DNA of 39,038 nt, taken from assembly GCA_016218705.1 (NCBI GenBank), contig JACRDC010000065.1, positions 1-39,038 on the forward strand, in the 5' to 3' direction. The translations under genes were made by a program, and so were the position numbers. Origin of the DNA: Desulfarculus sp. (GTDB taxonomy: Bacteria; Desulfobacterota; Desulfarculia; Desulfarculales; Desulfarculaceae). This document shows, piece by piece, positions 463 to 20,116 of this stretch (position 1 is its first letter; each line of letters starts with the position of its first letter). A model generated the notes under the pieces. The model saw nothing but the letters and a program-made list of their open reading frames with translations, was not told where the DNA came from and did no database searches.

Positions 463-2304
463 CTAGCGGCCCTGGATGAGGCCGCGCATGATCTCCACCT
501 GGCCCTTGAGGTGCATGGCCTGGGCGCTCATCTCTTCGCTGGCGCTTGCCGACTCCTCGGCGTTGGCCGCGCTCTGCTGGGTGCCTTGGCTGATGAGCCC
601 GATGGCCGAGCCCACCTGCTCGATGTCGCTGAGCTGGCCCTGGCTGGCGGCGGCGATCTCGCCCACCAGCACGGTGACGGCCTGCACGTCCGTGGCCACC
701 TTGGCGTAGAGATGGTCGGTCTCCTCCACCACGCCCGAGCCCGCCTTTATCTTGCGCAGGATGTCCTCCACCAGGGCGTGGGTGTTGCGGCTGGCCTCGG
801 CCGAGCGCATGGCCAGGTTGCGCACCTCCTCGGCCACCACGGCGAAGCCGGCCCCCGCCTCTCCCGCCCGGGCCGCCTCCACGGCGGCGTTCAGGGCCAG
901 CAGGTTGATCTGGAAGGCGATGGCGTCTATGGTCTGCACCACCTTGACCACGTTGTCGCCGGCCACCGTGGTTTCGCGCATGGACAGGATCAGGGCCTTC
1001 ATGGATTGGTTGGCGCCTTGCAGGTTGGCGGTACCCTGGCGGCTGTGCTGTGCGGCTTCCTGGGCGCTCACTGAATTCTGCTGGGCGCGGCCGGTGGTCT
1101 CGGACAGGGCGGCGCTGATCTGCTCCAGGGAGCCGGCCTGGCTGCTGGCGCTGTCGGCCAGGGACTGGCTGGCGGCGCTGACCTGCCCGGCGGCGGCGGT
1201 CATCTGCTGGGACATGTCGTCCAACTCGGTGATAGCCCGGTTGATGGGCCCAGCCAGACGGTGGGCGAAAAGCCAGGCTCCCGGCACGGTCAGGAGCACG
1301 CAGACCAGGGCGGCCAGGGCCAGAAGCTTAATCATCTGCCAGGCGTTGCGCTGGGCGGCCTCCTTGGAGTACAGGCAGGCGATGGCCGCCAGGCGCTTGC
1401 CGCCTGCGCCCAAGCCCAGCAGGCCCTCGTAATAGCTGGTCTGCTCCACCTGGACTTCGGCTAGGTGGCTGTCATACTTCTCGGGCGCGGAGTCCCAGTT
1501 GCGGCTGGGCTTGGCCAGGCCGGGCACGGTGCCCACGCTCAGCCCCTGGCTGGTGTAGATGTTCACGCCGGTGCCGCTTAGCCTGGCCAGACGCCGCACC
1601 TGGGCCTGATCCAGACGCACCAGGGCCACCACCAGCCCCACGGTCTTGGTCTCAAAGGCCTTGGTCTCACGGTTGTAGACCTCGCCCAGCACCGGGGCCT
1701 GGGCCGCCAGGCACAGCGTCTGGCCCTCCAGGACCAGGGTGCTGGCGCCCTTCTCCAGGCCTTGGGCGGCCCGGGTCTGGGGGAACTCGCCGCCGGGGGA
1801 GCCGCTCTCCTGCCATTCGTTGATGCCCAGTTCCTCGCCGGGCTTGACCAGCTTGAAACGGCGCTGGTACTGGGGTTGGGTCTGGGAGTAGCCCAGGAGC
1901 ACGCCGCCGTCCTGGCTGACGCCCCAGGCCATGAGCTCCCCCTCGGGTCCGTAGATGGCCGCCTTCCATAGGCCCTGGGCCTTGACCGAGTTCTCCAGGG
2001 TCTGCACCACCTCCCCGTAGGTGGGGCGCAGCTCGGGCTCCTTGGTCTTGCCGCTATACTCGGCCAGGTACTTGAGGTTGACCGGGATTTTATCCATGCC
2101 GGCCAGTTGCACCACGCCGCTGGCCAGCTTGGCCTGCCCGGCGGCCAACTCCTCCTGGATCAGACCGAAGGAATTGCCGATCACCTCGCGGGCGGCCTCG
2201 CCGCTTTGACGCACCAGGATGAAATAGGCGGCCGCCGTGGACACGGCCATGACCGCGGTCACCAAAAGCACGGACATCAGCATCAGCCGGTTGCGCAGGT
2301 TCAT
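463..2304 (-). CDS. Methyl-accepting chemotaxis protein
   Basis: Transmembrane chemoreceptor that would relay ligand binding to CheA/CheW and bias flagellar or other motility. The 613-residue protein has a membrane segment at about 8-31, a large periplasmic sensor (about 32-322, Cache-like by size and position, exact family not assigned), a second membrane segment at about 324-347, a short HAMP-like stretch and a long coiled-coil signalling domain. The conserved hairpin tip lies at about 470-505, with the typical [19 protein letters not shown] motif. There is no C-terminal NWETF-type CheR-binding pentapeptide: the protein ends GLIQGR. A GGGAGA ribosome-binding site precedes the ATG. The gene lies downstream of the Liv operon on the same strand but is separated from it by 275 bp with a strong hairpin, so it is probably its own unit. 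The ligand is unknown; proximity to the transporter makes the transported acid one candidate (inference). Confidence 0.95.
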
Positions 2305-2579: not shown

Positions 2580-3329
2580 CTACAGCCCCAGGTAGGTCTT
2601 GCGGATCACCTCGTCCTGCAGCAGGTCGTCGCCCTTGCCCTGGGCGATGATGCGCCCCGAGGAGAGCACGTAGTTGCGGTCGGTCAGGCTGAAGACCGAA
2701 GCCACCTCCTGCTCCACCAGCAGGATGGTCACGCCGGTCCGGCGAATCTCCACGATCTTGTTGAACACCTCCTGGCGCATCAGGGGCGCCAGGCCGGTGG
2801 AGGGCTCGTCAATGCACAACAGCTTGGGCCGCGACATCAGGGCCCGGCCCACGGCAAGCATCTGCTGTTCGCCGCCGGAGAGAGTGCCCGAGACCTGGCC
2901 CAGGCGCTTTTTCAGAACCGGGAAGAGCTGGAAGACCTTGTCCAGGTCATCCTGCACCTGGCCCTTGCCGCCGAAGAGGTAGGCGCCGGCCATGAGGTTG
3001 TCCTGCACGCTCATCTCGCGAAAAGGCCGGCGCCGCTCCGGGCAGTGCACCAGGCCCAGGCGCACGATCTCGTGGGCCGGCGTCTGGCTTATGGGTTTGC
3101 CCTCAAAAAGCACATCGCCCTCGATGGTGACCTCGCCGCCGGTGGTGCCGCGCTTCATGCGCTTTTCCCAGGCCACCAGGCCGGTGATGGCGCGCAGCAC
3201 CGTGGACTTGCCCGCGCCGTTGGGCCCCACCAGGCTCACCAGCTCACCGGTGTCCACCTTTAGGGAGATGCCGTTAAGTATCATGGCCTTGTCATAGCAG
3301 ACCGTCAGGTTGTTGACCTCTAGCAGCAC
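2580..3329 (-). CDS. livF: Liv-type ABC transporter ATP-binding protein LivF
   Basis: One of two ATPase subunits of a branched-chain-amino-acid-type (HAAT family) importer; it hydrolyses ATP at the cytoplasmic face to drive uptake. The 249-residue length is normal for LivF. Walker A GPNGAGKST is at 35-43, the ABC signature LSGGEQQML at 150-158 and Walker B LLCIDEP at 170-176; the C-terminus ends in the family-typical YLGL. The start is a GTG at 3329 that directly abuts the livG stop codon (TAA-GTG), with GGGAGG seven bases upstream. This points to translational coupling. It is the last gene of the five-gene operon. Members of this family also import aromatic and aliphatic carboxylic acids, so the name does not fix the substrate. 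Confidence 0.95.
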   Translation of the reverse strand: MLLEVNNLTVCYDKAMILNGISLKVDTGELVSLVGPNGAGKSTVLRAITGLVAWEKRMKRGTTGGEVTIEGDVLFEGKPISQTPAHEIVRLGLVHCPERRRPFREMSVQDNLMAGAYLFGGKGQVQDDLDKVFQLFPVLKKRLGQVSGTLSGGEQQMLAVGRALMSRPKLLCIDEPSTGLAPLMRQEVFNKIVEIRRTGVTILLVEQEVASVFSLTDRNYVLSSGRIIAQGKGDDLLQDEVIRKTYLGL

Positions 3330-4097
3330 TTAGACGCCTCCCTTGCCCAGATAGGCCTCGATCACCTCGGGGTTCTTCACGATCTCCTGGGGAGGCCCGT
3401 CGGCGATGATGGTGCCGAAGTCGAGCACCACGATGCGGTCCACGATCTTCATGAGCTGTTGCAGCTTGTGCTCGATGATTATCATGGCCGGACCCTCGGA
3501 GTGCAGGCGGCCGAAGCGCCCACCCTTGTGCAGCCGGGCGATGGACTTGGCCATGAGGTCGGTCTCGGCGGGGCTCAGGCCCCCGAAGGGCTCGTCCAAC
3601 AAGAGCAGTTCGGGCTCGGTGGCCACGGCCCGCGCCACCTCCAGGCGCTTGAGGTCGCCCTGGCTCAGGGTGGATGCCTTCTCCAGCGCCATGTCGGAGA
3701 TGCCGGCGAACTCCAGCGCGTCCATGGCCTTGGCCTCCACCTTCTTGACCCACTCGCCGCGCTTCATGGAGCGGGGGCTGAGACAGGAGACCATCACGTT
3801 GGCGATGATGGGCAGCCGGCGAAAAGGGCGCATGTTCTGGAAGGTGGGGGCGATGCCCTTGTTGACGATCTCCCAGGTCTTCTTACCGGTGATGTCCTCG
3901 CCCTTGAACAGCACCTTGCCCGAGTCGGGCTTGAGTATGCCGGTGATCAGCCGCAACAGGGTGGTCTTGCCGGCGCCATTGGGGCCGATCAACCCCAGCA
4001 CCTCCTTGCGGTCCAGGTTGAAGCTGACGCTGTTGGTGGCGGTCAGCCCGCCGAAGTTCTTGTGCAGGTCGTGCACTTCCAGGAAGGACTCGGCCAT
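3330..4097 (-). CDS. livG: Liv-type ABC transporter ATP-binding protein LivG
   Basis: Second ATPase subunit of the importer, expected to pair with LivF under the LivH/LivM permease dimer. 255 residues; Walker A GPNGAGKTT at 38-46, a slightly unusual signature LSQGD (144-148, where LSGGE/LSGGQ is usual), Walker B LLLLDEP at 164-170, and the switch histidine in IIIEHKL. A short insertion (ARLHKGGRFGRLHSEGP) sits between Walker B and the switch histidine, so the D-loop region is longer than in a standard LivG. The GAGGAGG ribosome-binding site lies within the last codons of the upstream permease-ligase fusion gene, which ends 4 nt before this ATG, so the two are probably translationally coupled. 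Confidence 0.95.
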   Translation of the reverse strand: MAESFLEVHDLHKNFGGLTATNSVSFNLDRKEVLGLIGPNGAGKTTLLRLITGILKPDSGKVLFKGEDITGKKTWEIVNKGIAPTFQNMRPFRRLPIIANVMVSCLSPRSMKRGEWVKKVEAKAMDALEFAGISDMALEKASTLSQGDLKRLEVARAVATEPELLLLDEPFGGLSPAETDLMAKSIARLHKGGRFGRLHSEGPAMIIIEHKLQQLMKIVDRIVVLDFGTIIADGPPQEIVKNPEVIEAYLGKGGV

Positions 4098-4101
4098 GGC
4101 T

Positions 4102-6927
4102 TTACGCCTCCTCGGTCTGTTCGCGCAGCTCGCGGCGGGAGACCTTGCCCACGTCGGTCTTGGGCAGCTCGCCGCGGAACTCGATGATCTGCGGCACCTT
4201 GTAGTGGGCCAGCTTCTCGCGGCACCAGGCCATCAGCTCCTCCTCGGAGAGCTTGCCGCGGGCCTCGGCCTGGCAGACCACGTAGGCCTTGATGAGCTGT
4301 CCCACCTTGGGGTCGGGCACGCCCACCACGCCGGCGGCCTTGACCTGGGGGTGGCTGTAGAGCACCTCCTCCACGTGCTTGGCGAAGACCGAGTAACCCC
4401 GGTGCTTGATGAGGTCGCGCTTGCGGTCAAAGAAGTGGAAGTAACCCTCCTCGTCCATGCGCACCAGGTCGCCGGTGCGCAGCCAGGTGCGCCCCTCCAG
4501 CTCTATCATGGTTTCCAGGTTGTCCTTGGGGCGCTGCCAGTAGCCCTGCATGACGTTGGGGCCGCTGACGATCAGCTCGCCCACCTGGCCCACGGGCATG
4601 AACTCCAGGCTCTCCACGTCCACCACGGCGGCGTCCACATTGGGGATGGGCAGGCCGAAGGAGCCCTTCTTGGGCCGCTCCAGGGGGTTGGTGTGGGTCA
4701 CGGCCGCCGTCTCGGTCATGCCGTAGCCCTGGGTGATCTTGCTGCCGGTGCGGCGCTCCCAGCCCTCCACGGTGGTGGCTTGCAGGGTGTCGGCCCCGCA
4801 GACCAGCACCTTCAGGCGCCGCCAGTTGACGCGGTCGGTCTTCTCGTATTCCTTGAGGTGCTCGTAGAGGGTGGGCACCCCGTAGAAGGCCGATGCGTCG
4901 TAGCGCTCCATGGCTCCCAGTATCTCGTCCATCTCCGGGGTGGTGAACAGCACCAGGGTGTGGCCGCGTATCAGGCCGGTGAGCATGATGACCACCTGGC
5001 CGTAGATGTGGAACAAGGGCAGGAAGGCGATGGCCGTTTCCTGGCCGTCCTTGAACTTGTGCTCCCAGAAGGCCAGGGCCTGGGCCTGGCAGGCCACGAT
5101 GTTGCGGTGGGTAATCATGGCCGCCTTGGGATGGCCGGTGGTGCCGCCGGTGTAGGGCAGGGCCGCCAGGTCGGTCTGGGGATCAATGGTAACCTGGGGC
5201 GCCTGGGGCGGGCTGTTCTTGATGAGGTCCTGGAACTTGACCAGTCCGGCCTGGGCGATCTTGGCCGCGTCGGGCACGTGCAGGCCGCCGTAGGCCTTTT
5301 GCAGGAGCTTGTTGGCCACCATCTTCTTGATGCCGGGCAGGTACTCGTCCACGGCGGTGATGACGACCTTGTCCAGCGGCACGCCGGCCTTCTCCACGTT
5401 GTCGTAGAGGATGTCCTGGCAGACCACCATGCGGGCGCCGCTGTCCTTGAGCTGATGCGCCACCTCCTGGCTGGTGTACACCGGGCTGACCGGCGTGACC
5501 ACGCCGCCGGCCTTGAGCGTGCCCAGGTAGGCGATTACGTACTGGGGGCAGTTGAGCAGCAGAAGCGCCACGCGGTCGCCCTTTTTCAGCCCCAGATTGG
5601 CCAGGCCGGCCGCGAAACGGTTGGCCAGGTCCTGCAATTCTTTGTAGGTGATCTTGGTGCCATAAAAGATCAGGGCGTTCTTGCCCGCGAACTTTTGCGC
5701 CGACCTGTCGAACATCTGGGGCACCGAGTCCGGGGGTATGTCCATGAACTCGGTTGCGCCCGGCGGGTAGAACTTGAGCCAGGGCTTGGCCAGGTAGCTC
5801 TGCTCGCTGGCGGTGGTGACGGCGGCCTCGTCCTGTTCCTCGGTGGCGGCCGAGGCGCGCACCTCGCCGGCCAGGCTGGCGTCGCAGACCCGGCAGCGCC
5901 CCCGGGAGCGGGCGTTGCGCGCCTTGCAGCGCGGACACTCGGTCTCCAGGCGGTCGCGCAGCCAGGGCACCAGGCCCTCGGGCATGAAGAGCAGCGTGAC
6001 CAGCACCAGGCCAGCGAAGACGAACATGCGCAGCTCGGGCAGGCCTGGGAAGCTCTCCTGCACCGCCCGGAGCACCTCCATCAGGGGGTTGAGGAGAAAG
6101 ACACCCACCACCGGACCGTAGATGGAGACCATGCCGCCGAAGACCGACCAGATAATGACCTGGAAGGAGAGCGACACCTCCAGGGCGGAGGGGCCGGCCA
6201 GGCGCATGAAGTGGGCGTAGAGTCCGCCGGCGATGCCGGCGAAGAAGCCGCTCAGGCAAAAAGCAAGAAGCTTGTAACGGGTGGTGTTGATGCCCGCGGC
6301 CCGGGCGGCCAACTCGTCCTCGCGGATGGCGTGCAGGATGATGCCGGTGTTGGAGTCGGTGATTTTCCACATCACCAGGCAGCAGGCCAGCATCACGACG
6401 TTGATGAGGTAGTAGTCGGAGGTGCGCGAAGAGGTCAACCGCGTCAGGCCCGACAGGCCCAGCTCGCCGCCGGTGACGCCGGGGAAGGCGAAGACCAGGC
6501 CCATGAGGATGATGGGGAAGGCCAGGGTGGTAAGCGCCAGGTAGGAGCCCTTGAGTCTCAGGCAGGGGATGCCCACCACCAGGCCCGTGAGTACCCCGCC
6601 CACCGCCCCCAGCGGGATGGAAAGCCAGGGCGGCAGGCCCAGGTTGAGGTTAAGCAGGGCCGTGACATAGGCCGAGACGCCGAAGAACAGGGCGTGGCCG
6701 AAGTTCATCTGCCCGGTGAAGCCCGAAAGCAGGTCCCAACTGGCGGCCAGGATGGCGAAGATGGCCGTGAGGATGACCACGCGCAGGATGTAGTAGTCCT
6801 GGGTCAGCACCGGCAGGAGCAGAAGCAGGGGCACCAGCACCAAAAGCGCCACGCGGCTGGGCAAGACCAGCACCTCGCGGCGCAGGATGTTCAGGAAGCG
6901 GCGGATGTAGGATTTGAGCAGACCCAT
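4102..6927 (-). CDS. LivM permease fused through a zinc ribbon to an acyl-CoA synthetase
   Basis: Single uninterrupted frame of 941 codons. Residues 1-328 are a LivM-type ABC permease with multiple membrane segments and the family pattern SGFTGQMNFGHALFFGVSAY near 68-87. Residues 331-348 form a zinc-ribbon motif with CPRC (331-334) and CRVC (345-348). A short acidic linker (about 352-387) follows. Residues about 388-941 are a complete AMP-forming acyl-CoA ligase: P-loop YTGGTTGHPKAA at 592-603, YGMTET at 735-740, TGD at 818-820 and the C-terminal PKTDVGKVSRR with the predicted catalytic lysine K928. The ligase part would make acyl-CoA from a carboxylate, ATP and CoA on the cytoplasmic side, right at the exit of the permease. 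No methionine sits at the natural start of the ligase part, which argues against separate translation. The ATG at 6927 is 2 nt past the livH stop and is preceded by GAGGAGG. The substrate class (fatty, aromatic or hydroxy acid) is not readable from the sequence. Confidence 0.93.
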   Translation of the reverse strand: MGLLKSYIRRFLNILRREVLVLPSRVALLVLVPLLLLLPVLTQDYYILRVVILTAIFAILAASWDLLSGFTGQMNFGHALFFGVSAYVTALLNLNLGLPPWLSIPLGAVGGVLTGLVVGIPCLRLKGSYLALTTLAFPIILMGLVFAFPGVTGGELGLSGLTRLTSSRTSDYYLINVVMLACCLVMWKITDSNTGIILHAIREDELAARAAGINTTRYKLLAFCLSGFFAGIAGGLYAHFMRLAGPSALEVSLSFQVIIWSVFGGMVSIYGPVVGVFLLNPLMEVLRAVQESFPGLPELRMFVFAGLVLVTLLFMPEGLVPWLRDRLETECPRCKARNARSRGRCRVCDASLAGEVRASAATEEQDEAAVTTASEQSYLAKPWLKFYPPGATEFMDIPPDSVPQMFDRSAQKFAGKNALIFYGTKITYKELQDLANRFAAGLANLGLKKGDRVALLLLNCPQYVIAYLGTLKAGGVVTPVSPVYTSQEVAHQLKDSGARMVVCQDILYDNVEKAGVPLDKVVITAVDEYLPGIKKMVANKLLQKAYGGLHVPDAAKIAQAGLVKFQDLIKNSPPQAPQVTIDPQTDLAALPYTGGTTGHPKAAMITHRNIVACQAQALAFWEHKFKDGQETAIAFLPLFHIYGQVVIMLTGLIRGHTLVLFTTPEMDEILGAMERYDASAFYGVPTLYEHLKEYEKTDRVNWRRLKVLVCGADTLQATTVEGWERRTGSKITQGYGMTETAAVTHTNPLERPKKGSFGLPIPNVDAAVVDVESLEFMPVGQVGELIVSGPNVMQGYWQRPKDNLETMIELEGRTWLRTGDLVRMDEEGYFHFFDRKRDLIKHRGYSVFAKHVEEVLYSHPQVKAAGVVGVPDPKVGQLIKAYVVCQAEARGKLSEEELMAWCREKLAHYKVPQIIEFRGELPKTDVGKVSRRELREQTEEA

Positions 6928-6929
6928 GG

Positions 6930-7799
6930 CTAACGCTCCTCCTCGAAGGACACCCCAAAGAGCCCCTCGGGGCGGATGAGCAGCACCAGGATCATCACCG
7001 ACAGGGCCACCGAGTCCTTGAGGAAGGAGCCCATGGGCAGCATGAACACCACCAGCGACTCGGCGAAGCCCAGGATGTAGGCCCCCACGAAGCTACCCTC
7101 GATGCTGCCCAGGCCTCCCAGCACCACGATGGCCAGCATCATGATCAGGGGGTGCATCCACATGGTGGGTTCCACGGTGATCAGGGGCACCACGATGGCC
7201 CCGGTCATGGCCGCCAGGCCCACCGAGACGGCCACGGTCAATAGGGCCACGCGGTTTACGTCCATGCCCATGAGGTTGGCCACCTCGCGGTCCTGGGCCG
7301 TGGAACGCAGGGCCAGGCCCAGGCGGGTCTGCATGAGGAAAAAGCGCACGCCCACCAGCATCACCAGCGAAAGGCCCAGGGCCAAAAGATGCTGGTAGGT
7401 GATCTTGGCACCCATGATCGTCAGATAGCCGTCCACCAGGGGCGGCACGCCCAGGTAGTGCCCGCCGAAGCTCATGAGGAAAACCTCTTGCAGCATCATG
7501 GCCACCGCGATGGTGGCGATGAGCACCGCGGCCTCGTGCTCCTGGATGGGCTGGATGAACAGGCGGTAGACCACAAGCCCCAAGAGCACCGTCAGCACCA
7601 CCGCGGCGGCCATGGCCAGCAGGAGGGGCAGCCCCATGAGCTTGCTGCCTATGTAGATGAGATAGGCCGCGGTCATGAACAGCGCGGTGTGGGCTATGTT
7701 GATGATGCGCGCCACGCCCAGCACCAGCGAGAAGCCGATGGCCAGCAGGGCGTAGACGCTGCCCTTGATGAGTCCGTCTATGATGATGTCCAGGAGCAT
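6930..7799 (-). CDS. livH: Liv-type ABC transporter permease LivH
   Basis: Inner-membrane permease subunit expected to pair with the LivM part of the fusion protein. From the ATG at 7799 the protein is 289 residues, the usual LivH length, and starts MLLDIIIDGLIKGSVYALLA, a typical first LivH helix. The frame stays open further upstream but would run into the binding-protein gene and has no protein character, so 7799 is preferred. About eight hydrophobic segments are visible. The motif GGLGSIEGSFVGAYILGFAE near the C-terminus is characteristic of the family. The gene ends 2 nt before the fusion gene starts. The 127-bp gap to the upstream binding-protein gene carries a hairpin. Confidence 0.93.
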   Translation of the reverse strand: MLLDIIIDGLIKGSVYALLAIGFSLVLGVARIINIAHTALFMTAAYLIYIGSKLMGLPLLLAMAAAVVLTVLLGLVVYRLFIQPIQEHEAAVLIATIAVAMMLQEVFLMSFGGHYLGVPPLVDGYLTIMGAKITYQHLLALGLSLVMLVGVRFFLMQTRLGLALRSTAQDREVANLMGMDVNRVALLTVAVSVGLAAMTGAIVVPLITVEPTMWMHPLIMMLAIVVLGGLGSIEGSFVGAYILGFAESLVVFMLPMGSFLKDSVALSVMILVLLIRPEGLFGVSFEEER

Positions 7800-7926: not shown

Positions 7927-9198
7927 CTACTTCTTCCAGTGCTCGATGACCCAGGGGGGCAGCTTGTGGGGCACGGTGCCCTCGAAGGTGACACCCTCCC
8001 AGCCGTTGGGCCACACGCAGAGCATCTTGCCGTCCTGCCACTGGGTGCCTATGGAGGTGATGTGCTTGGGGCCCCAGGTGATGTCGTGGGACTTGTCGAA
8101 GACCACCCGGCCGGCGGTGTCCAGGCTGTCAACCTTCTCCAACTCGGTGACCACCTTGTCGGAATCGGTGCTGCCGGCCTTTTCCACGGCCTCCTTGATG
8201 AGGAAGAGGGCGTCATAGGTGCCGGCGGTGTAGTTGGGGGCCTCCTTGAAGCGCTCCAGGTACTTGTCGTAGAAGGGGATGGTCTTGTCGGTGATCTTGA
8301 CTCGGGCCAGGGTGTTGACCGTGACGGTGTATTCGCCCTTGCCGCCCGTGGCGCCCCAGAAGCCCGACTTCTGCGATTCCACGTTTATGCCCACGTTGGC
8401 GGCCGGCACCTTCAGTTCGCCCCACTGCTTGGCGAAGGTCAGCCCCACCGAGGAGGAGAAGGTGGTGAAGATGATGTGGGCGCCGGCCCGCTGGATGGCG
8501 GCCAGCTCGGCGGTGCAGTCCTTGGCCACCGGCGAGGGCCGCCAGGTGCCCACCACCTCCATGCCCATCTTGGCGGGCAGGGTTTCCTCGGCGGCCTTGA
8601 CGATGGGGTCGGCCCAGGCGGCCTTCTCGGCCACGATGGCCACCTTGAGCTTCTCCAGGCCCAGGGCCTTCTTCATCTCCGTGGCCACCATGGCCAGGAG
8701 CAGGAAGTCCACCTTGCCCAGGTAGGTGGAGTTGATGGGCGTGAGGCGGAACCAGTACTTGTAGCGGTTGTAGTCCTTGGTGACCCGGGTGCACAGCTCG
8801 GGGTGGGCCGCGCCGCAGCCGATGAATATCTTCTTGGCGTCCATGGCGATGTCTTGCATCACCTGCACGGCCTCGGTGCGGAAGCCGCCCACCATGAAGT
8901 CCACCTTGTGCCGGCTGATGGCCATCTCGGTGGCGTTGGTGGCGTCGGGGATGCTCAGGAACTCGTTGGTGTCCACCTTGACCAGTTCTATGGTGCGTTT
9001 CTCGCCGCCCACCTGGATGCCGCTGGCGGCGTTGATCTCCTCGGCGGCCAGGGTGGCGCCGTTCCAGTGGCCCTCGCCCTGGGTGAAGGCCATGGGGCCC
9101 AGCACCCCGATCTTGATGGGCGAGGCCGCCAGGGCAGGTTGCCCCACGAGGCACAACAGCCCCAGTACAATCGTTCCCACCAACGCCAAACGTTTCAT
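7927..9198 (-). CDS. livK: Liv-type ABC transporter substrate-binding protein
   Basis: Periplasmic solute-binding protein (peripla_BP_6/LivK-like) that captures the substrate and delivers it to LivH/LivM. The 423-residue precursor begins with a signal peptide (about 1-24, MKRL, a hydrophobic core, then QPALA before ASPIKIGVLGP). The N-terminal KIGVLGPMAFTQGEGHWNGA pattern is typical of the type I fold. It is longer than E. coli LivK (about 370 residues), as in many binding proteins for aromatic or aliphatic acids. AAGGAGG lies upstream of the ATG. It is the first gene of the operon, behind the promoter at 9351-9379. The ligand is not identifiable from sequence alone; the fused CoA ligase downstream makes a carboxylic acid more likely than an amino acid (inference). 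Confidence 0.92.
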   Translation of the reverse strand: MKRLALVGTIVLGLLCLVGQPALAASPIKIGVLGPMAFTQGEGHWNGATLAAEEINAASGIQVGGEKRTIELVKVDTNEFLSIPDATNATEMAISRHKVDFMVGGFRTEAVQVMQDIAMDAKKIFIGCGAAHPELCTRVTKDYNRYKYWFRLTPINSTYLGKVDFLLLAMVATEMKKALGLEKLKVAIVAEKAAWADPIVKAAEETLPAKMGMEVVGTWRPSPVAKDCTAELAAIQRAGAHIIFTTFSSSVGLTFAKQWGELKVPAANVGINVESQKSGFWGATGGKGEYTVTVNTLARVKITDKTIPFYDKYLERFKEAPNYTAGTYDALFLIKEAVEKAGSTDSDKVVTELEKVDSLDTAGRVVFDKSHDITWGPKHITSIGTQWQDGKMLCVWPNGWEGVTFEGTVPHKLPPWVIEHWKK

Positions 9199-9644: not shown

Positions 9645-9911
9645 TCAATGTGTTATTATTGATCTCAATCTCGGCCCCGCAATGATCTCCCAGCGCACCC
9701 GCGCCTATTCTGCCAGCCTTGCTGGGGGGTTAGTGGCAGGGGCTCCTCGCCGGCCCCTTGCTTGGCGCCTGCTCCGGCCTGGGAGACGGCCAGCGCGCGC
9801 GCGGGTGATGCAACCGGTGCCTCCATCGCGTATATTTGGGGCGGCCTAGGGCCACACAGGCCATGGCCAGCCCCGAGGCCACCGACCACAAACGGAAGCG
9901 GAAACAGGCAA

Positions 9912-10640
9912 ATGAAGATCGGCGAACTGGCCAAGCGCACCGACGTCCCCAAGCAGACCATCCACTACTATATACGCAGCGGACTCTTGCCCAAGCCCCG
10001 CAAGCTGGGCAGCAACTCGGCGGAGTACGACGAAAGCTACGTGGAGCGCATCCGCCTCATCAAGGAGCTGCAAAACGATTTCTTCTTCCCCCTGCCCACC
10101 ATTAAGAAAATACTCTGGGAGCACCGCAGCGCCAGCAAGCACGCCATGCTCAAGCTCAAGAGCGAGTTCTTCAAACCCGTTGACCAATACCTAGGCAGCG
10201 GGGTGGAGGGCGACGAGGCCTTCCTGGCCGCCACGGGCCTGGCCGCCCGTTGGCTGCCCCGCCTAAAGGAATGGGGGCTGATCAGCTCCGAGATAAAGAA
10301 CGGCGTCAACGTCTACTCCCAAGACGACGTCTGCATTGGCAGGGTCATGGTGACCATGGCCAAGATGGGCATCAACCGCCGGCAGACCTTCAAGCCCGAG
10401 GTGACCATGCCCATGCTGGCCACCCTGTTCAAGGAAATAACCAAGATGCTCATTGACGACTTCCAGGCGGCCACGGCGGACCTTAAGCCCGCCGAACGCC
10501 AGGACCTGGCCGTCCGTGGCCACGAGATCATGAGCGTGCTCTTTTATCACCTCTACCGCAAGTATGTCCGTGAGTACACCGCGCGCCAGCGCCAGGTGCA
10601 GGAGGCCAAGGGCGAGGCCCAGTCCGACCGGCTCATTTGA
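9912..10640 (+). CDS. MerR-family transcriptional regulator with a second MerR-like motif
   Basis: Predicted DNA-binding regulator, 242 residues from the ATG at 9912. The frame is open further upstream, but the MerR domain begins exactly at MKIGELAKRTDVPKQTIHYY, so this start is chosen. The N-terminal winged helix-turn-helix (about 1-70) has the standard IGELAKRTDVPKQTIHYYIR pattern and GLLPKPRK wing. A second stretch at about 117-160 (LPRLKEWGLISSEIKNGVNV followed by YSQDDV and a helix ending in KMGI) has the same layout as the end of a MerR DNA-binding domain, which suggests an internal duplication. The C-terminus (about 165-242) is helical with no metal-binding cysteine cluster, so a metal sensor is unlikely. 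It is divergent from the Liv operon and may control it or the downstream iron-sulfur genes. Confidence 0.88.
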   Translation: MKIGELAKRTDVPKQTIHYYIRSGLLPKPRKLGSNSAEYDESYVERIRLIKELQNDFFFPLPTIKKILWEHRSASKHAMLKLKSEFFKPVDQYLGSGVEGDEAFLAATGLAARWLPRLKEWGLISSEIKNGVNVYSQDDVCIGRVMVTMAKMGINRRQTFKPEVTMPMLATLFKEITKMLIDDFQAATADLKPAERQDLAVRGHEIMSVLFYHLYRKYVREYTARQRQVQEAKGEAQSDRLI

Positions 10641-16330: not shown

Positions 16331-17389
16331 CTAGCCAGCCATCAGGGGCTGGGCCTGCCGGAACAGGGCCTTGATGGTGGGGGGCAGGCGGGCGAAGCGC
16401 TGGTCCCGGGTCTGGCCGTGATAGAAGCGGTAGTAGATTTGCTGGGCGATGACCACCAGGCGGAACAGGCCGAAGCAGTAGTAGAAGTCTATGCTCTCCA
16501 TGCGCCGGCCCGTGATCTGGCCGTAGTACTCGATGGCCTGGCGCCGGGTGAGGCTGCCGGGGCGGTTGGTTATCATGCTGGCGTTGGCCTGAAGCTCGGG
16601 TGGGTCGTCGGCTTGCACCCAGTAGGCCAGGGTACAGGCCAGGTCCATGAGCGGGTCGCCCAGGGTGGCCATCTCCCAATCCAGCACGCCGATTATCTTC
16701 ATTGGGTCCAACGGGTCCAGCACCACGTTATCCAGCTTGAGATCGTTGTGGATGATGGCCGGGGCCTGGCTCTCGGGGGGCATGTGGCAAAGAAGCCAGG
16801 CCATGATCTCCTCGCCATCGGGCACGTCGGGGGTGCGGGCGTCGCGGTAACGCCGGCTCCAGCCTTCCACCTGGCGGCCCACGTAGCCCTGGGGCTTGCC
16901 GAAGTTCTCCAGGCTCGCGGCCTTGTAGTCAACGGCGTGCAACCGGGCCATCACCTCCACCAGGCGCTGGGTGAGGGTGCGCATGCGCTCCGGCCCCAGG
17001 TCCAGGCCCGGCGGGACCTCGCGGCGCAGGATGATGCCCTTGATGCGCTCCATGACGTAGAAGGGGCAGCCCATGACCTCCGGGTCCTCGCAGTAAGCCA
17101 GGGTGCGCGGGCAGTAGGGGAACAGGGGGCGCAGGGCCGTCAGCACGCGGTACTCGCGCCCCATGTCGTGGGCGCTCTTGGCCTTGGTGCCATGGGGCGG
17201 GCGCCGAAGCACCATCTCGCGGCCGCCCACGGTCACGAAGTAAGTCAGGTTGGAGTAGCCGGAGGGAAACTGCTGGACGCTGATGGCGCCCTCCAGGCCG
17301 GGGATGCTCTGCTTGAGAAAGCGCTCCACGCGGGCCAGGTCCAGCTCCTCGCCCTGCCTGATGGCGGTGGCCTGATCGGTGAGGTTCAT
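16331..17389 (-). CDS. APH-family phosphotransferase, ACAD10/11- or LvaA-like acyl-CoA kinase
   Basis: 352-residue protein of the aminoglycoside-phosphotransferase fold. Nucleotide-loop SGYSNLTY at 43-50, catalytic loop HNDLKLDN at 214-221 (D216 is the predicted base, N221 binds metal) and DWEMATLGDP with metal ligand D237. The DWExxTLGDP form is typical of the branch found with acyl-CoA dehydrogenases, not of antibiotic kinases. In mammals this domain is fused to an acyl-CoA dehydrogenase in ACAD10/11, and in Pseudomonas putida LvaA phosphorylates 4-hydroxyacyl-CoA. By analogy this enzyme may phosphorylate a hydroxyacyl-CoA. The ATG at 17389 overlaps the TetR stop codon (ATGA), which settles the start and implies translational coupling; upstream in-frame ATGs are disfavoured. 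Resistance to aminoglycosides is not suggested. Confidence 0.88.
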   Translation of the reverse strand: MNLTDQATAIRQGEELDLARVERFLKQSIPGLEGAISVQQFPSGYSNLTYFVTVGGREMVLRRPPHGTKAKSAHDMGREYRVLTALRPLFPYCPRTLAYCEDPEVMGCPFYVMERIKGIILRREVPPGLDLGPERMRTLTQRLVEVMARLHAVDYKAASLENFGKPQGYVGRQVEGWSRRYRDARTPDVPDGEEIMAWLLCHMPPESQAPAIIHNDLKLDNVVLDPLDPMKIIGVLDWEMATLGDPLMDLACTLAYWVQADDPPELQANASMITNRPGSLTRRQAIEYYGQITGRRMESIDFYYCFGLFRLVVIAQQIYYRFYHGQTRDQRFARLPPTIKALFRQAQPLMAG

Positions 17390-18105
17390 GATTTGCTCGT
17401 CTCCCCGCATGGGCTGGGTAGGCCGGGGGCCAGGCACAGGGCCAGGGCGGCCTGCTCCACGAAGCCGGCGTAGCGGTCCACGCTCAGCCGGCGCTTGGCG
17501 TATTTCCAGCGCTTGAGGTACCAGTCCTGCAACATGGCCTTTATCAGGGCCGCGGCCATCTGGTGGTCCGCCGTGGCCATGAGCCCGGCCTTGACGCCTC
17601 GCTGGATGATCTCGGCCAACAGGCGCTCGGTGGCCAACTCGCTCTGCTTGGCCCGCTCTTTCTGCTCCTCGCCCAGGTGGCGGGCCTCCATGTAGGCGAA
17701 GAAGAAAAAGGGCTGCATGGCCTCGCTGAGGAACAGGTGGGTGCGGATGGCCGACCTAAGCTGCTCCACCGGCCCCTCGGCTTCTTGCAGGCCCTTCTCC
17801 AGCAGACGCATGACCACCCGGCGGCCGGTGCTCAAGACCATCTCCAAGAGCTCTTCCTTGCTGGTGAAGTAGTCGTAGAGCGCCCCCATGGAAAGCCCCG
17901 TGGCCCGGCTCAGGTCGCGCACGGTCATGGCCTGGAAGCCCTTCTGGTTGGCGAGCGCCAGGGTGGCGTCGAAGATAAGCTCCAGGTTCTTGACCGCCGT
18001 GGCCTCCTTCTTGGCCTTGATGGACTCGCGGTGGCTGGCCAGTATCTCGCGGCAGATGTCGCCGCGCGACAGGCCGGCCTGGCGGCTGAACTGGGCGAAG
18101 GTCAT
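17386..18105 (-). CDS. TetR-family transcriptional regulator
   Basis: 239-residue repressor-type regulator. The N-terminal helix-turn-helix lies at about 40-90: LIFDATLALANQKGFQAMTV, then RDLSRATGLSMGALYDYFTS with the typical G-x-L-Y-x-Y-F recognition helix. It is preceded by about 38 extra residues (MTFAQFSRQAGL...), longer than usual for TetR proteins. The C-terminal ligand-binding domain is all-helical. The ATG overlaps the stop of the acyl-CoA dehydrogenase gene (ATGA) and its own stop overlaps the start of the kinase gene. A regulator embedded in the operon suggests autoregulation of the whole acyl-CoA unit, with an acyl-CoA intermediate as likely inducer, as in FadR/PsrA-type TetR proteins (inference). 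Confidence 0.92.
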   Translation of the reverse strand: MTFAQFSRQAGLSRGDICREILASHRESIKAKKEATAVKNLELIFDATLALANQKGFQAMTVRDLSRATGLSMGALYDYFTSKEELLEMVLSTGRRVVMRLLEKGLQEAEGPVEQLRSAIRTHLFLSEAMQPFFFFAYMEARHLGEEQKERAKQSELATERLLAEIIQRGVKAGLMATADHQMAAALIKAMLQDWYLKRWKYAKRRLSVDRYAGFVEQAALALCLAPGLPSPCGETSKS

Positions 18106-19310
18106 TGGATGCCGCGCTCCGCCGCGAACTCCTTGAGGATGCGCTTGGCCACCGAGACCTTGTGCACCTCGTCCACGCCGTCGTAGATGCGCGCCGCCCG
18201 TTCAAAGCGGTAGAAGCTGGCCAGCACCGTGTCGTCGGTCATGCCCAGGCCGCCGTGTACTTGCAGGGCGCGGTCCACCACCCGCTGCATCACGCCGGCG
18301 GTGTAGAACTTGATGAGCGAGATGTCCTGGCGCGCCTCCTTGACGCCCTTGTTCTCGATCAGCCAGGCGCAGTTCAGCACCATCAGGCGGGCGGCGCGCA
18401 TCTCGGCGGCGCTCTCGGCGATCCAGGCCTGGATGATCTGCTCGTCGGCCAGCTTGCGCCCCGGGGCGGATGCGCGGGTCAGCGCCCGCTGGCACATCAG
18501 CTCCAGGGAGCGGTTACAGATGCCGATCCAGCGCATGCAATGGTGTATGCGCCCCGGACCCAGGCGCTCCTGGGCGATGACGAAGCCGTGCCCCTCCGGC
18601 CCCAGCAGGTTGGCCTGGGGCACCCGGCAGGACTGGTAGAGTATCTCGGCGTGACTGTGCCAGCCGCCGCCGGAGTGGCCCATCACCGGGATGTTGCGCA
18701 CCAGGTTGAAGCCAGGGGTATCGGTGGGCACGATTATCATGGAGGCCCGCAGATGGGGTTTGGCCTCGGGGTTGGTGACGGCCATGACGATGGCGAACTG
18801 GGAGCCGTCGGCCGAGGAGGTGTACCACTTGTGGCCGTTGATGACATAGTCGCCGCCTTCCTTGACCGCCGTGGTGTCCATCATCACCGGGTTGGAGCCG
18901 GGCTGGTCCACCTCGGTCATGGAGAAGCACGAGCGGATGCGGCCGGCGATCAAGGGCTCCAGGTAGCGCTCTTTCTGCTCGGGCGTGCCGTACTTCATCA
19001 GTATCTCGATGTTGCCGGCGTCGGGGGCCTGGCAGCCGAAGACGTAGACCCCGGTGGGGGTGCGGGCCAGGGCCTCGCAGACCAGGCCGTACTCCACCAG
19101 GTCCAGGCCCATGCCGCCGTGCTCCTTGGCGTGCAGGGGCGCCCACAGCTCCATCTGCTTGACCATCTCGCGCTTGGCCGCGAGCTTGGGTTCCACCTCC
19201 TCCCAGGGGCGGTGCAGGTATTCGTGCTCCAGGGGCATCAGCTCCCTTTCCACGAACTCGTTTATCATCTCCAGGATGACCCGCATCTTTGGCGAAAGGT
19301 CGAAGTCCAT
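18102..19310 (-). CDS. Acyl-CoA dehydrogenase of the ACAD10/11 (LvaC-like) type
   Basis: FAD-dependent enzyme of 402 residues with the standard three-domain acyl-CoA dehydrogenase layout. MTEVDQPGSNP at 131-141 and HKWYTSSADG at 160-169 (flavin/substrate region) and VHGGLGMTDD at 351-360 are visible. The usual catalytic glutamate motif IYEG is replaced by RIYDGVDEVHK (374-384) with D377. A DGPDEVH-type motif with aspartate is characteristic of the ACAD10/11 branch. Members of that branch act on 4-phospho-acyl-CoA, eliminating phosphate to give an enoyl-CoA, instead of simple dehydrogenation. The adjacent APH-type kinase fits this. The gene lies 25 nt after the histidine phosphatase gene and overlaps the TetR gene by 4 nt. 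Electron acceptor genes (ETF) are not seen nearby. A conventional acyl-CoA dehydrogenase function remains possible. Confidence 0.92.
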   Translation of the reverse strand: MDFDLSPKMRVILEMINEFVERELMPLEHEYLHRPWEEVEPKLAAKREMVKQMELWAPLHAKEHGGMGLDLVEYGLVCEALARTPTGVYVFGCQAPDAGNIEILMKYGTPEQKERYLEPLIAGRIRSCFSMTEVDQPGSNPVMMDTTAVKEGGDYVINGHKWYTSSADGSQFAIVMAVTNPEAKPHLRASMIIVPTDTPGFNLVRNIPVMGHSGGGWHSHAEILYQSCRVPQANLLGPEGHGFVIAQERLGPGRIHHCMRWIGICNRSLELMCQRALTRASAPGRKLADEQIIQAWIAESAAEMRAARLMVLNCAWLIENKGVKEARQDISLIKFYTAGVMQRVVDRALQVHGGLGMTDDTVLASFYRFERAARIYDGVDEVHKVSVAKRILKEFAAERGIQ

Positions 19311-19335
19311 GGCTAGCGTCCTTGATCTAGGGTGT

Positions 19336-20031
19336 TCACCGGTAGGTTATCAGCCCGGGGTCGCCGTGCTGTTCCAGATGGGCGGTGGAGTTGAAGCTGG
19401 ACATGGTCAGGTCGTGTCCGTTGTGGAAGAAGCTGGTCAGGGAGGCGTTCTTGATGACCCAGGTCATCTTGAGGGCCATTTGGTCTGCCAGGCCCAGGGC
19501 CTGCTGAAGTATGGCCGCGATGGGTCCGCCCGAGGTGAAGGCCAGCACGGTCTTGCCGCCTTGGTGGCCCGCCAGCACCTGTTGCCAGGCGTTCGCGGCC
19601 CGCTGCTGGAAGGCGCGCCAGGTTTCGCAGCCGTCTAGGTCATACTGGCCCGAGACCCAGCGCCGCATGGCCCCCTCGTAAATGATCTGGAAGGCCCGCC
19701 GGTCCTGGTACATGCCGGCCAGGCTGGCCTCCAGGGAGGGGTCCTCGCGCAGCATGGCGGGCAACAGGGCCTTGAGGATGGCGCCGGAGTCGTACTCATC
19801 CAGACCGGGCAGCAGGCTGGGCTCCAGCGCGGTCACGCCCGCCAGGGCGGCCCTGGCGGTCTGCCCTTGGCGCCGCAGGGCGCCGGCAAAGACGGCGTGG
19901 GGAGTTATGCCGGCCGCGCGCAGATATTGGCCGGTCAACTCGGCCTGGCGCCGGCCCAGGCCGGAGAGCTGGTCATAATCAGCCTGGCCGAAGCTGGCCT
20001 GGCCGTGGCGGATGATGTACAGCACGCTCAT
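19336..20031 (-). CDS. Histidine phosphatase family protein with altered second histidine
   Basis: 231 residues from the ATG at 20031, which has GGGAGA upstream and begins directly with the domain; the frame open further upstream is not used. The phosphoglycerate-mutase-like signature RHGQ is at 8-11 with nucleophile H9. An arginine motif LRRQGQTARA follows. The second conserved histidine, normally in an HGG motif, is serine here (TSGGPIAAI). The same SGG form occurs, as far as I recall, in phosphatase-like proteins located beside APH kinases and acyl-CoA dehydrogenases in other bacteria. It may dephosphorylate a pathway intermediate or a wrongly phosphorylated acyl-CoA; activity may be weak given the substitution. 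It is the first gene of the acyl-CoA operon, behind the promoter at 20088-20116. Confidence 0.88.
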   Translation of the reverse strand: MSVLYIIRHGQASFGQADYDQLSGLGRRQAELTGQYLRAAGITPHAVFAGALRRQGQTARAALAGVTALEPSLLPGLDEYDSGAILKALLPAMLREDPSLEASLAGMYQDRRAFQIIYEGAMRRWVSGQYDLDGCETWRAFQQRAANAWQQVLAGHQGGKTVLAFTSGGPIAAILQQALGLADQMALKMTWVIKNASLTSFFHNGHDLTMSSFNSTAHLEQHGDPGLITYR

Positions 20032-20087
20032 GCCGCTGGTCTCTCCCAAGCCCCGCCACCATGGCGGCGGCTTTGCACCTAGGGCCA

Positions 20088-20116
20088 ATAATGAACCAGC
20101 GCGGCTTCCTTGGCAA
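20088..20116 (-). promoter_or_regulatory. Candidate promoter of the acyl-CoA operon
   Basis: On the minus strand TTGCCA (20111-20116, five of six matches) is followed after 17 bp by CATTAT (20088-20093, four of six). The leader to the ATG at 20031 would be about 50 nt. It lies between the hairpin at 20121-20142 and the histidine phosphatase gene, so the operon would start here rather than read through from the diguanylate cyclase gene. Confidence 0.45.

Follow-up and report, generated by a model that had tools for sequence, protein, structure and literature searches.

The reading that we favor, with a probability of about 0.7, is that of a lineage-specific livM-ligase fusion within the operon of a liv-type (HAAT) importer, by which ATP-driven uptake of an acid would be coupled to its CoA activation at the transporter. 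The fusion of permease and ligase as such is confirmed, both in the window (the whole stretch of 39,038 nucleotides of Desulfarculus sp. that was analyzed) and in related genomes as detailed below. Proteins that are fused in one organism and separate in others are good evidence of a functional, often physical, association, and the fusion described here suggests that an ABC importer and the ligase acting on its cargo are directly linked.

The fusion protein and its operon

The fusion gene (Table 1) consists of 941 uninterrupted codons starting with ATG and encodes, in this order, a LivM-type permease, a CxxC-x10-CxxC knuckle, a short linker and a complete AMP-forming acyl-CoA ligase. The continuous frame with intact motifs that had been claimed in the original prediction was thereby borne out by the reading frame, the Pfam domains and the ANL motifs. 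Pfam matches were obtained for BPD_transp_2 (PF02653; residues 47-312, E 1.9e-49), AMP-binding (residues 406-797, E 2.4e-97) and AMP-binding_C (residues 852-928, E 1.8e-20). The fused LivM domain was about 54-86% identical to the unfused LivM of equivalent operons. The ligase was identified as an ANL acyl-CoA ligase by its AMP-binding and C-terminal domains, by the motifs A3 (residues 592-601), A5 (733-739), A7 (818-828), A8 (836-845) and A10 (922-928) including the A10 lysine, and by a PDB fold search, which matched this half of the protein to the ANL fold. The best NCBIfam models were those of long-chain-fatty-acid--CoA ligases, all listed ones scoring below their curated cut-offs (490 bits against a cut-off of 705 for PRK08314), and the protein is a relative, not an assigned member, of this group (PRK08314 and kin). 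A second cognate ligase was not found in the genome of the window, where the next best copy was only about 40% identical, so that the fused copy is the only cognate ligase of this genome.

Together with its neighbors the fusion gene forms a compact operon on one strand in the order K, H, fusion, G and F, which combines a Peripla_BP_6 binding protein, two BPD_transp_2 permeases and two ABC ATPases and thus encodes an importer of the liv type (HAAT, branched-chain-amino-acid type). The mechanical reading frame of livH begins at position 7994; its start was reset to the Met of MLLDI, from which the orthologous H of locus L095 measures 289 aa. The binding protein gave weak matches to solved structures. 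The genus, further Desulfarculaceae and Desulfatibacillum share the MerR-family regulator upstream of the operon. A methyl-accepting chemotaxis protein is encoded just downstream of livF (463-2304, minus strand), with a relative at the same place in congener G002 (L075). Loci L046, L070 and L090 exhibited two or three tandem binding-protein matches ahead of H-M-ligase.

Table 1. Position of the features of the fusion gene and its operon in the window.
Feature	Position	Strand	Evidence
livF ATPase	2580..3329	-	PF00005; operon position conserved
livG ATPase	3330..4097	-	PF00005 and BCA_ABC_TP_C; operon position conserved
livM-ligase fusion gene	4102..6927	-	Open frame of 941 aa; Pfam BPD_transp_2, AMP-binding and AMP-binding_C
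AMP-forming acyl-CoA ligase domain (residues 377-941)	4105..5799	-	Pfam; NCBIfam below curated cut-offs; motifs; ANL fold match
Ligase A10 motif PKTDVGK, Lys928 at the catalytic-lysine position	4144..4164	-	Motif
Ligase A3 motif (P-loop) YTGGTTGHPK	5125..5154	-	Motif
Fusion linker (about residues 353-376)	5800..5871	-	Junction DNA; pN/pS; pLDDT <50 at residues 354-365
CxxC-x10-CxxC putative zinc ribbon, LivM C-terminal tail (residues 331-348)	5884..5937	-	Motif; invariant in the family
LivM permease domain (residues 1-325)	5953..6927	-	Pfam PF02653 at residues 47-312
livH permease, start at MLLDI as in relatives	6930..7799	-	PF02653
livK-type periplasmic substrate-binding protein	7927..9198	-	PF13458 Peripla_BP_6
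Divergent MerR-family regulator	9762..10640	+	PF13411; synteny

Distribution and origin of the fusion

The fusion was present in four genomes of one Desulfarculus-like genus; in a fifth congener (G004) and the other split loci, 63 distinct ones in total, livM and the ligase are separate genes. The comparison set comprised 66 distinct loci, 3 fused and 63 split, with the locus of G003 being set aside for its interrupted ligase. Nearly all Desulfobacterota loci followed the order K-H-M-LIG-G-F; in those of Chloroflexota and Betaproteobacteria, LIG-G-F and K-H-M are divergently oriented. The junction region was matched by 45 of the 395 genomes sampled from the phylum, with stop-free read-through only in members of the genus of the window and no independent fusion elsewhere in this sample. 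Further fusions were likewise not observed in 301 genomes around a Chloroflexota relative or in 274 genomes around a betaproteobacterial relative, for which scoring was limited to the few top candidates of each genome. When mapped on the tree, as had been suggested beforehand, the fused proteins of the sampled genomes fell within one genus and one clade. A literature search of incomplete coverage found neither a described permease-ligase fusion, in line with what the original prediction had stated, nor a ribbon-tailed LivM, and the novelty of the fusion rests on these incomplete collections of papers and genomes. L020, in a member of the same family (G017), is a second, divergent operon copy with about 51% identity over LivM and ligase that occurs beside an ordinary one.

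With 126 contigs the genome is a draft, and an error in assembly or sequencing that deleted the stop codon is one explanation for a continuous frame; a sequencing error at the junction had been named at the outset among the findings that would overturn the prediction. The probability of such an artefact is negligible and it is refuted in practice by the congeners, since the junction was read through without a stop in three other assemblies (G001, G002 and G003), each with substitutions of its own and with a linker of different sequence, whose length varies in steps of whole codons. Both halves are moreover under selection. The pN/pS values of the window were 0.21 (permease), 0.24 (ligase) and 1.10 (linker) against G001, 0.22, 0.40-0.49 and 1.63 against G002, and 0.02, 0.18-0.24 and 0.68 against G003, respectively; the permease and ligase domains are under purifying selection, while the linker is unconstrained. 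G003 (L051) carries the fused copy closest to that of the window. Near position 6520 of this locus 86 bp are missing inside the ligase relative to the window, which shifts the frame, with both flanks conserved; this gap is either an assembly fault or a broken gene.

The fused copies have lost both the livM stop codon and the ligase start codon in all four cases, and the linker stands in place of the livM stop, the intergenic stretch and the ligase start. In the split congener G004 the LivM frame ends with CDAALD and a stop, and the ligase ATG follows 17 codons on in the same frame behind GGAGG, the two genes being kept apart by one TGA in frame. In a tree built from both domains, the four fused copies formed a single clade (100/99), and G004 adjoined it. 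Separate adjacent orthologues in relatives and a single derivation on the tree identify the gene as a true fusion, and comparison of the sequences shows the steps: the livM stop was lost, the intergenic stretch became a linker of roughly 20-30 residues, and the ligase start disappeared, which yielded one protein. By the same comparison the fusion arose recently and once, within this lineage, from genes that were already neighbors. No conserved start codon was found between ribbon and ligase in the four fused copies. As starts for a free ligase, a GTG in the linker was rejected for not being conserved, and the ATG at residue 393 was rejected since it lies inside the conserved N-terminus of the ligase, is not preceded by a clear ribosome-binding site and is missing from G002.

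These data also bear on whether the fusion may be neutral, with the family thriving unfused in dozens of lineages. Loss of a stop codon would then have joined two co-transcribed genes of the same pathway, with a linker long enough and contact unneeded, at no gain in coupling. We regard this as a serious possibility, to which we would give somewhat less than even odds. In split relatives the two genes often share a reading frame that is interrupted by just one stop, so that few mutations suffice, and a single origin in one genus, a linker that evolves freely and the success of unfused systems everywhere else are all in accordance with it. On the other hand, the fusion has been kept over considerable divergence within the genus (G000 versus G002) with both of its halves selected, and no fused copy has retained the ligase start codon. 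The linkage of the gene pair across phyla and the LivM tail specific to this pair, described in the following section, argue against neutrality as well.

The cysteine tail of LivM

The cysteine motif of the window protein, CPRC-x10-CRVC, was not created by the fusion, an explanation that was rejected since LivM of the split relatives carries this tail as well (consensus CPRCKxRNxxxRxxCRxC), a few residues ahead of its stop. The tail is invariant in the family, with the motif also present in one N-terminally truncated sequence, and systems whose LivM is about 47-52% identical have kept it too, with one first-position change in L170 (CQRCK). Although no Pfam ribbon model matched the CxxC-x10-CxxC tail, it corresponds to a zinc ribbon in having two CxxC knuckles on short beta strands, which were placed at residues 328-330 and 337-339 by a low-confidence structure model. 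This AlphaFold model of the fusion protein was mediocre (pLDDT 71.8, pTM 0.54) and provided no usable domain arrangement. The linker that follows is short and rich in Ala and Glu, and with its lack of constraint and the low model confidence at residues 354-365 (pLDDT <50) it is more in keeping with a flexible tether than with a rigid joint. Of the original interpretation, a true fusion inside a complete liv-type operon, unseen in the other lineages sampled, was upheld, while the proposed role of the zinc ribbon as a rigid joint was not: the ribbon, with which LivM proteins of this subfamily ordinarily end, predates the fusion, and what separates it from the ligase is an unconstrained linker.

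The tail was absent from the 18 other LivM-type loci read in the genome of the window, including two with a nearby ligase gene. Its presence in the split relatives and in none of these 18 loci marks it as a feature of the transporter-ligase pair, not of liv systems at large and not of the fusion. Four LivM loci without an adjacent ligase stop at contig ends, and their genomes carry a ligase at the start of another contig. A ribbon-tailed LivM with K and H and with no ligase, G or F nearby was observed at L095 (3750-7041; G441, CP070694.1, Desulfobacterales bin60), and in this complete chromosome a close ligase was not found, none being closer than 38%.

The ribbon tail may serve as a docking site for the separate ligase in unfused relatives, an idea favored by the occurrence of the tail only with ligase-linked LivM. 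Extended to a whole subfamily of liv-type importers in Desulfobacterota, Chloroflexota and some Pseudomonadota, the proposal would be that the tail holds a dedicated acyl-CoA ligase for an ABC-powered vectorial acylation, of which the fusion would be the covalent form; we put this forward tentatively, rating it slightly below an even chance. The tail of LivM lies at the cytoplasmic end, near the site where the ATPases bind, and it could instead serve LivG/LivF or gate the transporter as a metal or redox sensor unrelated to the ligase. That location, the finding that LivG is the most conserved subunit and the retention of the tail at L095 all speak for such a role. We nevertheless consider it unlikely, with other liv transporters of the same genome that have homologous ATPase partners being devoid of the tail, and the tail going with the ligase family across phyla. 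The invariant and as yet unnamed tail, to which the fusion has drawn attention, is common to more than 60 unfused relatives and as such is a more general and less expected lead than the fusion itself.

Proposed coupling of uptake to CoA activation

The strict operon linkage, the parallel divergence of LivM and ligase and the flanking beta-oxidation genes all agree with a coupling of uptake to CoA activation. LivM and ligase distances were correlated with r = 0.92 over 2080 pairs, which are non-independent and for which shared descent alone would give some correlation. Operon linkage alone could reflect co-regulation. In the coupled process H, M, G and F would constitute the ABC importer, supplied by the periplasmic binding protein; once across the membrane, the acid would be converted to acyl-CoA, at the expense of ATP, by the ligase, which is attached to LivM at its cytoplasmic end. 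A ligase placed at the importer mouth would prevent leak-back of the acid, and the acyl-CoA would be trapped inside and handed to beta-oxidation. In unfused species the ribbon tail would keep the ligase at the transporter; in the fusion the attachment would be covalent with one ligase per LivM. Acid uptake and activation in these anaerobes thereby become testable with one purified protein.

The LplT-Aas system resembles the fusion in that an inner-membrane transporter and an acyl-handling enzyme are encoded by operon neighbors in E. coli and by one ORF in other bacteria, with a complex of the two demonstrated (PMC11416262). Among fused transporters and acyl-handling enzymes it is the closest analogue, although LplT does not belong to the ABC importers and Aas acylates lysophospholipid instead of producing acyl-CoA from an imported acid. 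Vectorial acylation by FadL/FadD is similar to the process proposed here in that the acid is trapped as acyl-CoA on entry; to our knowledge it involves neither an ABC pump nor a fusion. The FadL family (PF03349) was not found in the nearly complete genome of the window (G000) and was present in congeners G001 and G002. Comatose, a peroxisomal ABC transporter, is thought to act together with acyl-CoA synthetases on the far side of the membrane, which its authors describe as vectorial acylation; in contrast to the fusion it is eukaryotic, has an acyl-CoA thioesterase activity of its own and is not fused to a ligase (PMC6642094).

The operon context suggests organic acids as cargo, and the ligase family and the neighboring genes of the FadB, acyl-CoA dehydrogenase and thiolase types make a fatty acid or another alkyl carboxylic acid the probable substrate. 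Since the ligase scores below the curated NCBIfam cut-offs, any such assignment is a guess. The same coupled machine could alternatively handle an aromatic or dicarboxylic acid. In Rhodopseudomonas palustris, HAAT systems with a nearby CoA ligase import coumarate-type or dicarboxylic acids: RPA3723-3725 lie beside pimFABCDE, CouPSTU is associated with a coumarate-CoA ligase, and the liv-type binding proteins RPA3723/3724 bind fatty as well as dicarboxylic acids with a profile that tracks the PimA ligase (PMC3223731, PMC3610893). Unlike the fusion, the ligase is a separate protein in these systems, and the passages that describe them mention neither a ribbon-tailed LivM nor a ligase fusion (PMC3223731, PMC3610893). 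The binding profile of RPA3723/3724 is also a precedent for the coupling that we favor. A feruloyl-CoA synthetase was also the top match in the fold search with the ligase half. An aromatic or dicarboxylic substrate nonetheless appears improbable in view of the long-chain-fatty-acid ligases among the best NCBIfam models and of the type of neighboring genes.

Genes for thiolase, FadB-like proteins or acyl-CoA dehydrogenase, confirmed by domain models, were located within a few kilobases of about 22 loci, at some of them directly before K or after F. In the window the neighborhood includes genes for a 3-hydroxyacyl-CoA dehydrogenase, for an acyl-CoA dehydrogenase and for a phosphotransferase; the gene of a FadB-like protein lies at another site of the genome. 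An APH-family phosphotransferase, a TetR regulator, an acyl-CoA dehydrogenase and a histidine phosphatase are encoded in a row on the minus strand (16331-20088), an arrangement which we take to resemble hydroxyacyl-CoA clusters of the ACAD10/11 type.
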